Shown piece after piece: positions 1,526 through 11,216 of a stretch of DNA of 30,181 bases (positions are counted from its first letter, which is position 1; each line of letters begins with the position of its first letter). The position numbers and the translations under genes were made by a program. Location of the stretch: positions 1 to 30,181 of the IMG/VR virus record IMGVR_UViG_3300046010_002409, one strand, 5' to 3'. This stretch comes from a virus. The notes beneath the pieces are model-generated. The model saw nothing but the letters and a program-made list of their open reading frames with translations, searched no databases and was not told the origin of the DNA.

Positions 1526-2301
1526 TTGACATGACACACGGAAGTTTATTTTCAGGTATTGGAGGTTTTGAGCTTGGAGCAGAATGGGCAGGTATTCCAA
1601 CGCTTTGGAATTGCGAAATAAATCAATGGAATAGAAAACTTTTAAATCATAGATTCCCAAATACTAAACAATATGAAGACATCAGAACACTCGCAAATCC
1701 CAGAAAAGTTAACATCATCAGCGGAGGTTTTCCTTGTCAAGATATTTCGGGGGCAAACACAAAAGCCAAAGGAATTAAAGGACACCGTTCAGGATTATGG
1801 GGCGAAATGTATCGCATTGTGGGGCAAGTTAGACCTGAGTACATCATCATTGAAAACAGCCCAAACCTTACTTTTCGAGGACTTGAACGAGTCTTATGCG
1901 ATCTTTCCGAAATCGGGTATGATGCGGAATGGCAATGTTTATCAGCTACAACCTTTGGATTCCGACATAGACGAGAACGAATATACATTATTGCCTACTC
2001 CAACACACACAGTAAGTTTTCAAGAGGGATGGGAAACGCCTTTATTGATGTGGAAGGGTTTAAAGACCCGAAAAAGTGGCGTGAGATTCGGAGCGAATTT
2101 AGCTTGGACACTGAAAAAATGGTATTTAGACACGAACAATGGGGAAGTGAAGGACAAGACATTATTGCCGAACCCCTACTTTGTGGAAATATTGATGGGG
2201 TATCCGAAATGGTGGACAGATTGGCGGGTTTAGGCAATGCAATAGTCCCTTTTATCGGGTACTATCTTTTTGAATGTATAAAAAATCACACGAAGCTATG
2301 A
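1522..2301 (+). CDS. DNA (cytosine-5-)-methyltransferase
   Basis: This 259-residue protein carries the C5-methyltransferase motifs in order. Motif I is FSGIGGFELG (about 10-19, SAM binding). Motif IV is GGFPCQDIS with the catalytic Cys72. Motif VI is ENS (111-113; ENV is usual). Motif VIII is FRHRRERIYIIA (about 147-158, QxRxR-like). Motifs IX-X are VDRLAGLGNAIVP near the end. It transfers a methyl group from SAM to C5 of cytosine. With no restriction endonuclease nearby it probably protects phage DNA from host restriction. The target-recognition region is short, as in phage enzymes. It overlaps its neighbours by a few bases on both sides. A second conserved frame lies inside it (1673-2233). 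ATG 1531 is an alternative start. Confidence 0.9.
   Translation: MIDMTHGSLFSGIGGFELGAEWAGIPTLWNCEINQWNRKLLNHRFPNTKQYEDIRTLANPRKVNIISGGFPCQDISGANTKAKGIKGHRSGLWGEMYRIVGQVRPEYIIIENSPNLTFRGLERVLCDLSEIGYDAEWQCLSATTFGFRHRRERIYIIAYSNTHSKFSRGMGNAFIDVEGFKDPKKWREIRSEFSLDTEKMVFRHEQWGSEGQDIIAEPLLCGNIDGVSEMVDRLAGLGNAIVPFIGYYLFECIKNHTKL
1673..2233 (+). CDS. Out-of-frame ORF overlapping the cytosine methyltransferase; possible overprinted phage protein
   Basis: This 186-residue ORF lies wholly inside the methyltransferase gene in the +1 frame. It would normally be dismissed as a shadow, but its translation looks like a protein family I know from phages. It has SLKTAQ followed by LLFEDL, then PKSGMMRNGNVYQLQPL, LLPTPTHT, and near the end LLPNPYFVEILMGYPKWW. 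Independent phage proteins with S-L-K-T-S-Q, W-P-x-S-G-M-M-R-N-G, L-P-T-P-T and N-P-x-F-V-E-x-L-M-G-F-P-x-x-W-T are familiar to me, often near dcm genes. Either both frames are used, or that family arose by overprinting and is not translated here. The start ATG 1673 has no clear ribosome site. Confidence 0.4.
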   Translation: MKTSEHSQIPEKLTSSAEVFLVKIFRGQTQKPKELKDTVQDYGAKCIALWGKLDLSTSSLKTAQTLLFEDLNESYAIFPKSGMMRNGNVYQLQPLDSDIDENEYTLLPTPTHTVSFQEGWETPLLMWKGLKTRKSGVRFGANLAWTLKKWYLDTNNGEVKDKTLLPNPYFVEILMGYPKWWTDWRV

Positions 2302-6230: not shown

Positions 6231-6331
6231 CGCGTGGTAGCGGAATGGTAGACGCACCTAATTGTAGGATAATGGGAAATAGATAGTACTTTAATACTCA
6301 TTAATTGCAGGTTCGAATCCTGCCCACGCGA
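6231..6331 (+). tRNA. Aberrant tRNA or tRNA-like RNA, anticodon unclear
   Basis: Both ends are canonical. A perfect 7-bp acceptor is formed by CGCGTGG (6231-6237) with CCACGCG (6324-6330). A D-arm of Leu-like type reads GCGGAATGGTAGACGC. A perfect T-arm is GCAGG-TTCGAAT-CCTGC (6307-6323). A73 is unpaired and CCA is not encoded. The middle is abnormal: about 50 bases lie between D-arm and T-arm, and no 5-bp/7-base anticodon arm can be drawn. Instead there are CCTA-ATTG-TAGG (6257-6268) and a long hairpin TAATGGG (6270-6276) with CTCATTA (6297-6303). Candidate anticodons by position would be GTA or TAG, but neither has a good stem. Confidence 0.6.
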
Positions 6332-7637: not shown

Positions 7638-8000
7638 ATGGAACTAAAAGTAACACACATCGAAGCAACGATTCCGCAAGTGAGTTTCGTTTGCGATTAC
7701 AAATATGGAACTTTTCAGCAATCCGATTGTTTGTTGTATTTTGCTGGTACTACTCCTTTCAACTGCCAAGCTATTTTCTCATTATACGCGGATAATTTCC
7801 CGATAACAAACGACACGGCATTTCAGGTTGTAACAGCACATTTGTACGACGAAGACGGAAACGCCTACCACATCCGCCACTCCGCGCAACCGTCAATCAG
7901 CATCAACGGAAACGAAGTAACACTAACGTACACCGACTGCCTGTTACCGCTCAACGGCACGAACGGAACTATCATCGTGAAATTCATCAACCAACTCTAA
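7638..8000 (+). CDS. Hypothetical beta-rich protein, last gene of the early arm
   Basis: A 120-residue protein with alternating strands (VSFVCDYKYGTF, FQVVTAHLYDEDGNAYHIR, NEVTLTYTDCLLPL) suggestive of an immunoglobulin-like or jelly-roll fold. I recognise no family. It is the last rightward gene before the strong terminator at 8034-8058 and starts at ATG 7638 after a 13-base gap. An origin as a decoration or adhesion-type module is possible but not shown. Confidence 0.5.
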   Translation: MELKVTHIEATIPQVSFVCDYKYGTFQQSDCLLYFAGTTPFNCQAIFSLYADNFPITNDTAFQVVTAHLYDEDGNAYHIRHSAQPSISINGNEVTLTYTDCLLPLNGTNGTIIVKFINQL

Positions 8001-8033: not shown

Positions 8034-8058
8034 AGCCCTGAGAAATCGGGGCTTTTTT
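8034..8058 (+). terminator. Rho-independent terminator of the early arm
   Basis: AGCCCTGA (8034-8041), a GAAA tetraloop (8042-8045) and TCGGGGCT (8046-8053) form an 8-bp stem with one G-U pair. Six T residues follow (8053-8058). It lies 33 bases after the last early gene and marks the left limit of the cassette region. Confidence 0.9.
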
Positions 8059-8059
8059 G

Positions 8060-8090
8060 TTGCATAGTTTGGTAAATTGTTTTAGCTTTG
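8060..8090 (+). promoter_or_regulatory. Promoter abutting the first attC-like site
   Basis: TTG (8060-8062), 20 bases, then TAGCTTTG (8083-8090) followed by C. The -7 element is a perfect TAnnTTTGC and the upstream element is TTG. Its predicted start lies at about 8096, inside the R'' box of the first attC. It would therefore read straight into the cassettes, like an integron Pc promoter, though no integrase gene is present. Confidence 0.5.
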
Positions 8091-8091
8091 C

Positions 8092-8168
8092 ACCTAACGT
8101 TTTGCAGCTATGCGCAGTTGTGTGTCGGCTTTGTGCGGTGGTAAAATTGCGTATAGGTGCTGTTATGC
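8092..8168 (+). repeat. attC-like recombination site A
   Basis: The R'' box is ACCTAAC (8092-8098, a perfect RYYYAAC). The arm CTATGCGCA (8108-8116) pairs with TGCGTATAG (8148-8156) over nine positions with one G-U. CAG (8105-8107) and CTG (8160-8162) continue the stem around an extrahelical GTG, as expected for attC. The R' box is GTTATGC (8162-8168). The 16-mer GTATAGGTGCTGTTAT recurs in site C. The cassette that should precede it (starting GTTAGGT) is missing. Confidence 0.7.
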
Positions 8169-8313
8169 TCTCCTTGCGGTTTTTCAGCACAAATATTCAA
8201 TCGAAGCACTGTTTTTTAATCTTTTTTTTGTGCGGTGGGCTAAAAATATTCACATTGAAAATCAACACTTTACAAATAAAATTACAAATAAGTGAAAAAT
8301 AATTGTAAAAATG

Positions 8314-8345
8314 TTTGGTACATACAAATATTCGGCTTATATTTG
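8314..8345 (+). promoter_or_regulatory. Cassette I internal promoter
   Basis: TTTG (8314-8317), 20 bases, then TATATTTG (8338-8345). Both boxes match the Bacteroidetes consensus exactly. It gives a leader of about 15 bases before ATG 8367 and makes the cassette self-expressing. The 145 bases between the attC and this promoter contain T-rich DNA with no gene that I can support. Confidence 0.8.
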
Positions 8346-8366
8346 TATCATCAAATCAGATAAACA

Positions 8367-8639
8367 ATGATACTTCAAGATTTAAAAGACAACAGAGAAA
8401 TGATAATCGCTTCAATTACTGAAAAAGTTGGCGAAGAAAATGTAAAAGCTGTGATGCAAACAATGGTTGGCGGTTTAGATTGCTGCGATACAATCGAAGA
8501 GTTAATTGATAGCGCAATTTCAATTAACGAATTTGAAGCAAGACCTAAGAAAAAAGAAAGCAAACTTGCTGCAATGATGGCTAATTCTCATCAAGATGAA
8601 AAATACAATCACTTAACTAAAGAATGGGAAAAAATCTAA
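8367..8639 (+). CDS. Cassette I gene 1, hypothetical helical protein
   Basis: 90 residues, start ATG 8367 in the context AGATAAACA, 22 bases after the promoter's -7 box. The protein is acidic at first and helical (EKVGEENVKAVMQTMVGGLD, then CCDTIEELIDSAISI) with a lysine-rich end. No family is recognised. It is the first of three co-directional genes in one cassette, which is unusual because most integron cassettes hold one gene. A toxin-antitoxin or defence role is conceivable, but nothing in the sequence shows it. Confidence 0.55.
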   Translation: MILQDLKDNREMIIASITEKVGEENVKAVMQTMVGGLDCCDTIEELIDSAISINEFEARPKKKESKLAAMMANSHQDEKYNHLTKEWEKI

Positions 8640-8650
8640 AAATCAATAAT

Positions 8651-8857
8651 ATGCAAAATCAAGAAATGTATTTCGTATTTGGAACAGCCGTTATAAATGG
8701 CTACAAAGAGACTGTTTACCTGACAAAATCAGGTGAAACTAAACAAAACGTAGAAAAAGAAGATTTGATGCTTTTTGAAAGTTCAAAAGCCGCTTTTGAA
8801 TACACTAAGGCAAAAAGTTTAGACTTGGCTGAATGGGATAAGTTATCAAATTTTTAA
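8651..8857 (+). CDS. Cassette I gene 2, hypothetical protein
   Basis: 68 residues from ATG 8651, 11 bases after the preceding stop. A longer version from ATG 8624 would overlap the previous gene and add nine lysine/asparagine-rich residues, so I prefer 8651. The pattern is strand-rich at first (MYFVFGTAVINGYKETVYLT), then a helix (SSKAAFEYTKAKSL). No family is recognised. The next gene begins two bases after its stop, showing an operon. Confidence 0.5.
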   Translation: MQNQEMYFVFGTAVINGYKETVYLTKSGETKQNVEKEDLMLFESSKAAFEYTKAKSLDLAEWDKLSNF

Positions 8858-8858
8858 T

Positions 8859-9143
8859 ATGCGTAAGATTTTTCACTTAGAAACCAAAGCAGACAACTCT
8901 CATAAATACTATGGGAGTTTGTCCGCTTTATGCTACGAAAATTCCGACTTGGGGATTTCAAAATTTACGCTTGACCGATTTGACTTTGATGCTTCAAATT
9001 TTGAAAACGCAATTTGCATTATCAGAAAATCAGTAATGAAAACTACTGGAAGCGTGGGAAAAAAAAGATTAAAAAAACTTCCACAAATGTCAAATCGAAG
9101 CGGTCACGTAGCAATGGAGCGTAACGGTTGGGGCTTTGCGTAG
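8859..9143 (+). CDS. Cassette I gene 3, hypothetical protein reading into the attC
   Basis: 94 residues from ATG 8859. The opening MRKIFHLETKADNSHKYYGS and the following LSALCYENSDLGIS look like a small protein type I have seen in Bacteroidetes, in which a short strand pair reports H-x-Y-F-G-S-L-x-A. I cannot name it. The C-terminus from about residue 87 is encoded by the R'' and L'' boxes of attC B (9119-9143), so the last residues are set by the recombination site. The tail after about residue 62 is basic and low in order. Confidence 0.5.
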   Translation: MRKIFHLETKADNSHKYYGSLSALCYENSDLGISKFTLDRFDFDASNFENAICIIRKSVMKTTGSVGKKRLKKLPQMSNRSGHVAMERNGWGFA

Positions 9144-9213
9144 TAGCCCTTAGTAGAAACTTAAAATTAACCACGACACTTGATAGGGCTATTACGCAAA
9201 ACCCTTGTTAGCT
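9119..9213 (+). repeat. attC-like recombination site B
   Basis: R'' is GCGTAAC (9119-9125). The main arm TTTGCGTAGTAGCCCT (9135-9150) pairs with AGGGCTATTACGCAAA (9185-9200) at all 16 positions with one G-U. GGG before it and CCC after it continue the helix past unpaired bases. R' is GTTAGCT (9207-9213). The loop is 34 bases. The size and design are those of an attC hairpin. Confidence 0.75.
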
Positions 9214-9233
9214 GCCGTTTTAAATTACAAATT

Positions 9234-9515
9234 ATGTCAGGAGGAAGATTTGATTACTTACAATATCGCATCACAGAAATAGTTGATGGAATTGAACAAG
9301 AAATAAGAAACAATAATGCCGAGCCAAGAAAAGAAGATTGGTTTGAGCCAAATAATTTTAAAGAAGAAACAATTAATGAGTTCAAAAAAGGAATTGAATT
9401 ACTAAAAAAGGCACAAATTTATGCCCAAAGAATTGATTGGCTTTTATCAGGCGATGATGGCGAGGAAACATTTCATCAACGACTTTCGGAGGACTTGTCT
9501 AAAAATGGCAGCTAA
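9234..9515 (+). CDS. Cassette II gene: conserved small protein (MSGGRF family)
   Basis: 93 residues from ATG 9234; a start at 9180 would lie within the attC. The opening MSGGRFDYLQYRITEIVDGI and the later FKKGIELLKKAQIYAQRIDW with LLSGDDGEETFHQRL match a widespread small protein family found in phages and bacteria, of unknown function. The protein is acidic and mostly helical. Its TAA stop (9513-9515) lies inside the R'' box AGCTAAC, a common economy of integron cassettes. It has no clear promoter of its own; readthrough from upstream may express it. Confidence 0.7.
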   Translation: MSGGRFDYLQYRITEIVDGIEQEIRNNNAEPRKEDWFEPNNFKEETINEFKKGIELLKKAQIYAQRIDWLLSGDDGEETFHQRLSEDLSKNGS

Positions 9516-9612
9516 CGGATTGCAGCTATACGAAGTAAAAGTGGCTACCACTAAACTTCAATATTTGCAGGATGCTCACAGACACTTTTATTTTGTATAG
9601 GTGCTGTTATGT
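9510..9612 (+). repeat. attC-like recombination site C
   Basis: R'' is AGCTAAC (9510-9516). The arm CTATACGAAGTAAAAGTG (9526-9543) pairs with CACTTTTATTTTGTATAG (9583-9600) over 18 positions with two G-U pairs. R' is GTTATGT (9606-9612). TTGCAGCTAT on the left and GTATAGGTGCTGTTATG on the right are shared with site A, showing a family of related sites. The loop is about 39 bases. Confidence 0.8.
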
Positions 9613-9672
9613 GTCTGGTTTAAAAAAGAAAAAAAGGGAGGGAAAAATGTTTTTAAAAAATTTTATTTTAAA

Positions 9673-10401
9673 ATGCAATTAGACAAAATATACAACAATG
9701 ACTGCTTAAACATTATGGCTCAAATGCCTGATGATTATTGCGACTTAACAGTTACTTCACCGCCTTATAATTTTAATGCAGGGAGTGGACTTGGAACGAA
9801 ATACAATAATACTTTTAAAGACAATTTAAGTCAAGAGCAGTATTTTGATTGGAGTGTAAAAGTGATTACAGAATGTATGAGAGTATCAAAATTGGTAGCT
9901 TGGAATATTCAACTGATTGCAGGAAATAAAGAAGCATTGTTAAAATACATTGGCTACTTTCATAAAGAGATTAGAGAAGTTTTGATTTGGGATAAGCAAT
10001 ATTCGGAACCTGCAATGAATGAAAAGGTATTTAACAGCGAATTTGAGTTTATTATTTTGTTTGATAAAAATGGAGGTGGCAGAAAAATCGAACAGGCACA
10101 ATTTGAAAGGGGAACAGTTGCTAATGTGATAAGACAAAACAAGAGTAAAAACTCAATCAAATCAAAGAATAAACAGGATAATCATTTTGCTGTATTCCCT
10201 GATGCGTTACCTGCAAAACTGATACACTACTTTAGCAAAGAAGGTGATGTGATATTTGAGCCATTTATTGGTAGCGGAACAACTGCTTTGAGTGCAATAA
10301 AATACAAACGAAAATTTATAGGATGTGAATTAGTAAAGGAATATTTTGATATAGCAGAACAAAGAATAAAAGATGCACAATCTCAAACCTCTTTATTTTA
10401 A
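9673..10401 (+). CDS. Cassette III gene: beta-class N4-cytosine/N6-adenine DNA methyltransferase
   Basis: 242 residues from ATG 9673; a GTG start at 9601 would begin inside the attC. The catalytic motif IV TSPPYN (28-33) comes first and the SAM-binding motif I EPFIGSGTT comes near residue 200, which defines the beta order. It ends with an RKFIGCEL-type segment and YFDIAEQRI. It methylates an exocyclic amino group of cytosine or adenine; the target site cannot be read from sequence. No partner nuclease is present, so it is an orphan enzyme, plausibly anti-restriction for the phage. AT-rich codon use differs from the flanking phage genes. Confidence 0.88.
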   Translation: MQLDKIYNNDCLNIMAQMPDDYCDLTVTSPPYNFNAGSGLGTKYNNTFKDNLSQEQYFDWSVKVITECMRVSKLVAWNIQLIAGNKEALLKYIGYFHKEIREVLIWDKQYSEPAMNEKVFNSEFEFIILFDKNGGGRKIEQAQFERGTVANVIRQNKSKNSIKSKNKQDNHFAVFPDALPAKLIHYFSKEGDVIFEPFIGSGTTALSAIKYKRKFIGCELVKEYFDIAEQRIKDAQSQTSLF

Positions 10402-10457
10402 AATGAAATTTTTTAAAAACATTTTTAGAGCGTGGGCTTTTATCTTTTTTAAACTTG

Positions 10458-10478
10458 CACATAACTACTGGCTTTGCG
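10458..10478 (+). repeat. Truncated attC-like site D (right end of the array)
   Basis: CACATAAC (10458-10465) contains a perfect R'' box ACATAAC and is complementary to the start of cassette III (9606-9613). TACTGGCTTTGCGCA follows, resembling the left arm of site B (GGGCTTTGCG). No matching right arm and no GTT box occur in the next 150 bases, so the site appears cut off here, marking the junction with phage DNA. Confidence 0.55.
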
Positions 10479-10535
10479 CATATTCATAGCGACAATCCCA
10501 GATAAGACAGAGATAACAGAACAAAAACGAACGAC

Positions 10536-10715
10536 ATGAAAAATAAATTGAAACCTGTACGATGTGGTAATTGTAAGTTTTTTAATCACACATACAAGCC
10601 GAGATATGATGGTATTTGCACAAAAGACAATGAATACACAGCAGAGCATAGAGTTTGCCACAAACTACCAACAGACGAAGATAGGAGAAATGCTAAATTA
10701 AGACGCAATAGATAG
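10536..10715 (+). CDS. Small four-cysteine zinc-ribbon-like protein
   Basis: 59 residues from ATG 10536 in the context ACGAC. The four cysteines fall in C-G-N-C (10-13), then G-I-C (28) and V-C-H-K (41), a typical small phage zinc-binding pattern beginning R-C-G-N-C-K-F-F. The C-terminus is very basic (DEDRRNAKLRRNR). It probably binds nucleic acid. It is the last rightward gene and converges on the leftward late arm, with nine bases between the two stop codons. Confidence 0.6.
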   Translation: MKNKLKPVRCGNCKFFNHTYKPRYDGICTKDNEYTAEHRVCHKLPTDEDRRNAKLRRNR

Positions 10716-10724
10716 TAAGTGTAT

Positions 10725-11216
10725 CTACTTTTGAAGAAATTTGTCTATCTGATCCTGCTTGTTGCGGCTGCCGATGGATGATCCGAAGTAATATCCGACA
10801 ACTCCCATCGCAATAGTCGTAAGCGATCCAACAATACCTGCCACTAGCATTTCTTTTTCAGCAGGTATGTCTTTAAATAAAATCGTGTACCACATCACGA
10901 AGCACGAACCCAATAACAACAAAGCCAATACTGGTTGAATGATCTTGTTTATCAGCGGTGCTTTCTCGGACGTTGCCACCTGTACCTCACGGTTACGCGC
11001 GGAATCAACGTCTTTTAGAATCAGTTCCAATTCGCTGTTCTGCGCTTTGGTTATTTCTTCCAGATGGCGGTTGATTTCCTTCTGTACCTCCGCCTTGAAT
11101 TCCTCTTTTTCCTGACCCGTAGTGATGAACTTATCCGCTACGTTTCCGACTGATGTAACGATGTCCGCTGCTTTGTCGCCTGCGATCTTGCTTACTATTC
11201 CTGCGATTAAACTCAT
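10725..11216 (-). CDS. Holin (3TM holin-like)
   Basis: 163 residues. An amphipathic helical N-terminal half (EEFKAEVQKEINRHLEEITKA) precedes two clear membrane helices (about 95-115, IIQPVLALLLLGSCFVMWY, and about 123-146, LVAGIVGSLTTIAMGVVGYY). The ending F-G-S-S-I-G-S-R-N-K is typical of the phage 3TM holin family. It would form the membrane lesions that release the endolysin and trigger lysis. It is the last gene of the late transcript and its start overlaps the stop of the preceding gene (ATGA at 11213-11216). No intrinsic terminator is visible after it. Confidence 0.75.
   Translation of the reverse strand: MSLIAGIVSKIAGDKAADIVTSVGNVADKFITTGQEKEEFKAEVQKEINRHLEEITKAQNSELELILKDVDSARNREVQVATSEKAPLINKIIQPVLALLLLGSCFVMWYTILFKDIPAEKEMLVAGIVGSLTTIAMGVVGYYFGSSIGSRNKQDQIDKFLQK

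Follow-up and report, generated by a model that had tools for sequence, protein, structure and literature searches.

Clusters of attC sites that lack an integrase (CALINs) have been described in phages by Qi et al. (2023; PMC9892861), including a cluster with methyltransferases in Polaribacter phage P12002L, and IntI1 recombined attC sites in the assay reported there. The locus described here is similar in that it is an integrase-less attC cluster with methyltransferase cassettes in a Bacteroidota phage, and the P12002L cluster contradicts the statement in an earlier note on this DNA that none had been described in a Bacteroidetes tailed phage. The published account differs in giving polarity just as divergent sites, and cassette boundaries, attC sites with start codons and a matching integrase lineage are unreported in it; our own covariance model (R2, below) finds sites in the gene direction in P12002L too. 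On the bacterial side, IntegronFinder 2 lists a single complete Bacteroidetes integron, from Salinibacter, in RefSeq complete genomes (PMC9024848), and the available taxon-specific attC models do not include this phylum (PMC8352920).

The DNA analyzed here (the window), 30,181 bases long, is the entire linear viral record G000 and includes genes for terminase, portal and DnaB-like proteins. Plus-strand genes border the array on one side and a minus-strand structural block on the other, and the array is a real integron-type cassette array. We consider it highly probable that it comprises three cassettes, each an attC followed by its gene or genes, without an integrase of its own, and that its attC sites are those of Bacteroidota integrons whose integrase lacks the IntI-specific insert.

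On the left, a phage gene of unknown function (120 aa, 7638-8000, plus strand) that is kept in relatives L136 and L144 is followed by a putative terminator, an AGCCC...GGGCT hairpin with a T run (8034-8058, plus strand), conserved in three relatives. Directly 5' of the array is a predicted promoter, TTG-N20-TAGCTTTG (8060-8090, plus strand), conserved in the window, L136 and L144 and similar to the Bacteroidota promoter consensus. Sites A (8089-8171, with box AAC at 8096-8098 and right box GTT at 8162-8164), B (9116-9216) and C (9507-9615), all on the plus strand, are each complete attC-like structures consisting of a TAAC box, an unpaired spacer, a long imperfect stem and a GTTA box. By the TAA^C rule established in relatives, unit 1 (8098-9124, plus strand) consists of attC A and three small ORFs (8367-8639, 8651-8857 and 8859-9143), the last of which extends into site B. 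Unit 2 (9125-9515, plus strand) joins attC B to a 93-aa ORF of unknown function (phrog_6724, 9234-9515), whose TAA stop at 9513-9515 forms the final three bases of the unit; a stop codon inside a box had indeed been noticed earlier. Unit 3 (9516-10464, plus strand) joins attC C, which is 95% identical to a site of locus L049, to an N6_N4 DNA methyltransferase (9673-10401; Pfam PF01555, 1.5e-33).

Boxes had been reported at four places, and this stands for A, B and C. The fourth, site D (10456-10465, plus strand; GCACATAAC / GCACATAA^C), is a single box: because it has the end box GCACATAAC but no right half, we read it as the end of the last cassette rather than a full site. It abuts an attI-like fixed array end read on the minus strand (10465-10507), which ends TAG^TT. 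Beyond it are a 59-aa ORF (10536-10715, plus strand) that is absent from L136 and a right-flank gene conserved in relatives (10725-11216, minus strand; 163 aa, holin-like hydrophobic stretches, PHROG unknown). With three attC sites and no integrase found in this linear and possibly incomplete record, the window falls within the definition of a CALIN (at least two attC without an integrase) and outside that of a complete integron, which has an integrase gene in cis, as phage locus L316 does; the reported array without an integrase is thus borne out. Apart from the array, the window gives an Rfam tRNA match at 6231-6331 (101 bases, 44 bits) that is absent from the ARAGORN calls; it may be a tRNA interrupted by an insertion or an element resembling a tRNA.

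The proposed attC sites were evaluated with two covariance models. The first, R1, was built only from attC sites adjoining genuine IntI genes (37 sites, in genomes sampled under the same phylum setting), and the second, R2, from 47 sites of the phage/Bacteroidota family with the window, L136 and L144 left out. R2 confirmed all three sites on the 30-kb window (B, E = 3.7e-13; C, 6.8e-12; A, 2.4e-9; next best match 0.18), although its training sites are homologous to those of the window, and the fully independent R1 was significant for B only (E = 0.0028), with sub-significant scores for A and C (7.8 and 7.1 bits) at exactly the right positions. Control sequence totalling 397 kb, from IntI arrays and from phage loci with no known array, yielded five R2 matches, all of them IntI-type attC sites. 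The stem of the R2 family covaries: 20 of 24 pairs are changed on both sides, the score is 0.476 against 0.156 in shuffled alignments, and there are 237 both-side-change cells against 87. An Rfam search of the window gave no attC family match, and a symmetric-hairpin scan missed the sites because their unpaired spacers are unequal. The exact attC pattern had no match in genome contigs, the left-arm pattern was found there at 25 loci, and a 16-mer singled out in the earlier note occurs in 55 viral contigs, of which roughly one in four to one in three are attC sites, set in many unrelated flanks.

Each cassette start had been said to complement the cassette's own end, and this is upheld both in the window (7 of 8 bases in cassette 1, 9 of 10 in cassette 2 and the first 7 bases in cassette 3) and more widely. 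Across 135 cassettes from 62 phage loci the box self-match averages 8.05 of 10 against 5.27 when shuffled (maximum of 300 shuffles, 5.60).

The polarity of the phage cassettes is the reverse of that in bacteria. With a single model and a single orientation definition for both sets, genes follow the attC reading in the phages by 122 to 4 and in host arrays by 1 to 46 (Fisher 5e-36); the phage loci were fetched by DNA pattern and not by gene direction, and as some duplicate one virus the counts are not independent events. Host genes are thus oriented toward their own attC in the canonical way and phage genes are not, with the same gene direction in nearly all phage loci. The unit boundaries tell the same way. 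Three loci, L226, L241 and L244, have in common a methyltransferase unit (product 99-100% identical) with unrelated sequence on both sides, which starts at an attC box and stops at the next box, and L243 and L251, which are 99% identical, differ by a one-unit indel of about 1.1 kb with both ends within TAACG, the finest resolution to which crossovers could be mapped. Co-inheritance across all homologous gene pairs was noisy (33 vs 16), so that the near-identical units alone are decisive. These breakpoints show that a phage cassette is an attC plus its downstream gene, and they place the crossover at TAA^C of the gene strand. The earlier picture of a cassette as a gene with its attC behind it is not borne out, since the shared units and the indel break at the box before the attC.

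Close relatives of the phage show extensive turnover at the same locus. L136 matches the window at 90% in the left flank and 92% in the right, yet at A it has another attC, and its cassettes are different ones that encode a Mom-family protein (9e-70) and an N6_N4 methyltransferase, and L144, with the left flank in common, has four attC sites of its own and a Lar-like restriction-alleviation gene (2e-10) among others. Three bases of the left box itself differ among the three closest phages (ACC, GGA and ACA) despite an otherwise conserved flank. In the more distant relatives L138, L139 and L142 attC sites adjoin the homologous right-flank gene, and in L141 variable sequence follows the conserved right-end element; a search for relatives through the 139-aa upstream protein found none. 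The entirely different cassettes of L136 and L144 argue for a cassette array and not a fixed block, and they provide the independent movement among closest relatives that the earlier reading predicted. Gain or loss of a single unit at the crossover point is seen in other relatives (L243/L251 and L226/L241/L244), whereas the window differs from L136 and L144 by the whole array. Homologues of site A occur with other flanks in more than 10 phage loci, and one methyltransferase type recurs with different neighbors (L226:1776, L241:7121, L242/L244 and L010:12137), an apparent sign of a cassette pool shared among phages. Two further observations concern relatives: the 2.4-kb contig of L144 repeats its left flank at both ends (2127-2378 and 1-138), so that the array looks circular, which may reflect either the assembly or a genuine circle, and in L139 the leftmost detected attC (2219-2297, minus strand) directly follows the apparent 3' part of a tRNA gene.

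The bacterial counterpart of these sites was sought in 296 genomes, whose phylum assignment rests on the 'phylum of Niabella' setting. Bacteroidota genomes with the attC family of the window have, near their arrays, a tyrosine integrase that matches TIGR02249 in two pieces, split at profile positions 180/238; in alignment, about 38 residues of the IntI-specific insert are missing. With scores of 168-211 bits against a curated cut-off of 265, these proteins lie outside the IntI family as defined, and within NCBIfam they match NF040815, 'site-specific tyrosine recombinase/integron integrase', best. Their N-terminal extension is variable, with HARP matches below threshold. A protein-only search found the integrase in 91 of the 296 genomes (about 31%), and 19 of 20 loci chosen by integrase protein alone, blind to attC, hold R2 attC sites. 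When the first attC's end box was used to predict where the first cassette starts, the expected attI box matched at 10 of 10 positions in 15 and at 9 of 10 in 10 of the 25 usable loci, and the predicted start lay 44-126 nt past the integrase stop in 23 of the 25. Integrase and attC also co-occur across 61 genomes (24/26 vs 14/35, p = 4e-5). The host loci share with chromosomal IntI integrons the attI box, the cassettes, the box complementarity and a foldable attC, but differ in the missing insert, the sub-cut-off score and the variable N-terminus of the integrase. They look like complete integrons, mostly of the layout known from Treponema (PMC3607928); that comparison is to another phylum and is one of layout. 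As to the earlier proposal of IntI-type recombination, its logic fits, while the enzyme family linked to the sites lacks the IntI-specific insert. TIGR02249 had no match in 24 phage records.

Classical IntI above the curated cut-off is present in 84 of the 296 genomes, more than published surveys suggest. Separately, nearly identical long attC sites recur in gut Bacteroidales (L155, L158, L160, L164, L167, L168 and L169) and in L146, a contig binned as Sporosarcina; this recurrence across gut Bacteroidales species and L146 suggests recent spread.

One virus carries the enzyme itself and serves as an independent test of the unit structure. In L316 (12802-18557 of the 64-kb virus record G360) there are ten attC sites in the phage arrangement, and a gene for an integrase of the insert-less family lies 54 nt past the box of the last unit, which makes this a complete phage-borne integron. 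The position of that gene beyond the last unit puts attI at the end of the array toward which the 3' ends of the genes point, as we infer for the window at 10465. There, the right-end element ends G^TT and is conserved in position and core in L136, L138, L139, L141 and L142, the sequences diverging after TAG^TT; the predicted empty site of the window locus is TAG^TTAnnnGCAAAGCTA. The element is without the inverted repeat and the TATAAACAA motif of host attI, and a host-like attI anatomy was rejected by the inverted-repeat score (host 5.2, phage 3.1, shuffled 3.7). The idea that arrays in general have a promoter ahead of their first attC found no support outside the phage group of the window (4/60 vs 0/135).

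A further property of the phage sites is that many contain a start codon. Of 173 distinct phage sites, 68 have an internal ATG from which a reading frame passes through the GTT box and on for at least 40 codons, compared with 4 of 173 on the reverse strand and 4 of 64 and 3 of 64 for host sites. Typical attC-encoded leaders are ...PADAKPVLPAV and ...ETAQLGIGAVMPR, and in L136 and L144 such frames run into the methyltransferase and Lar-like proteins. These frames differ by attC type, which is sensible only if the attC and the downstream gene move together. The window is no convincing example: site A is crossed by a single 61-aa frame, and 9673 is the probable start of the methyltransferase. Work on fused cassettes and translation signals in class 1 arrays (PMC4670013) likewise describes reading frames across attC boundaries, but there they are rare and result from attC loss, whereas here they are systematic and start within an intact attC. 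A leader resembling GCGGTTTTTTAGCACAAAACTTCAATCGAAGCACTG also follows many phage attC sites (window 8167-8210, L006, L010, L022, L033 and L045) and resembles a repeated AGCACTGAACTT motif in the loops of long host attC sites.

Could the array instead be an ordinary CALIN, with canonical gene-plus-attC cassettes that a classical IntI of the host had inserted? The attC architecture, the detection of site B by R1, the genuine IntI genes of the phylum noted above and the recombination of other phages' attC by IntI1 (PMC9892861) would all fit. We nevertheless regard this as improbable, because the shared units and the L243/L251 indel break before the attC and not at the GTT behind it, gene direction is anti-canonical in 122 of 126 scorable phage cassettes, and reading frames run across the GTT box at 68 sites.

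Two explanations dispense with integron insertion altogether. Phage genomes are mosaic, and homologous or illegitimate recombination between similar hairpins, without a site-specific integrase, might reshuffle genes in this way; crossovers resolved to TAACG at best and a site A that differs between close relatives are compatible with such exchange. Adjacent attC sites differ outside the box, however, leaving little homology to recombine, the box complementarity found across 135 cassettes would follow only if units were excised and integrated at the boxes, and L316 encodes an integrase beside its array, so that we give mosaicism just as small a chance as the ordinary CALIN. Far less credible still is that the hairpins are terminators or translational control elements in the transcript of a fixed anti-restriction operon. 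They are intergenic and many carry start codons, but gene content changes between near-identical phages while the flanks stay, identical attC sites are found with different genes, and in hosts the sites are linked to attI and an integrase.

We therefore return to the integrase-less array of attC-then-gene cassettes, for which we propose the following model. Each cassette would be a circularizable unit, an attC hairpin followed by one or more genes. During infection, while phage DNA is single-stranded, an insert-less integrase, supplied in trans by the host, by another phage or by an element residing in the same cell, would recognize the folded attC and join cassettes at TAA^C (G^TT on the other strand), either at the fixed right end beside the holin-like gene or between existing attC sites. 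The phage promoter in the left flank would transcribe the array, and in many phages translation would begin in the attC and continue through its arm. The cassettes supply anti-restriction functions (DNA methyltransferases, Mom and Lar) that turn over rapidly among near-identical phages, the presumed benefit to the phage being evasion of restriction.

In the open-access literature, with subscription papers and preprints outside the scope, we came across no account of an integron integrase lineage without the insert, of phage cassettes in this reversed build or of attC sites that carry start codons, and all three appear undescribed. The attC family of the window represents an apparently undescribed, widespread branch of Bacteroidota integrons. 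Complete integrons had been regarded as nearly absent from Bacteroidetes, with the one published case; about 31% of the sampled genomes carry an insert-less integrase linked to attC arrays. Searches based on IntI would score such arrays as integrase-less. On balance, we lean toward a broader hypothesis, in which this is a common Bacteroidota integron lineage that has escaped notice and phages maintain a private pool of reversed cassettes, in which the attC also serves to start translation and to encode a leader. If this is true, cassettes from phages would lie antisense in bacterial arrays and stay silent there, and those from bacteria would be silent in the arrays of phages. The need for the IntI-specific insert in acting on folded attC, and what determines cassette polarity, become testable. 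The phage loci show a system of gene exchange in which anti-restriction genes pass singly among near-identical genomes and the recombination site doubles as coding sequence.
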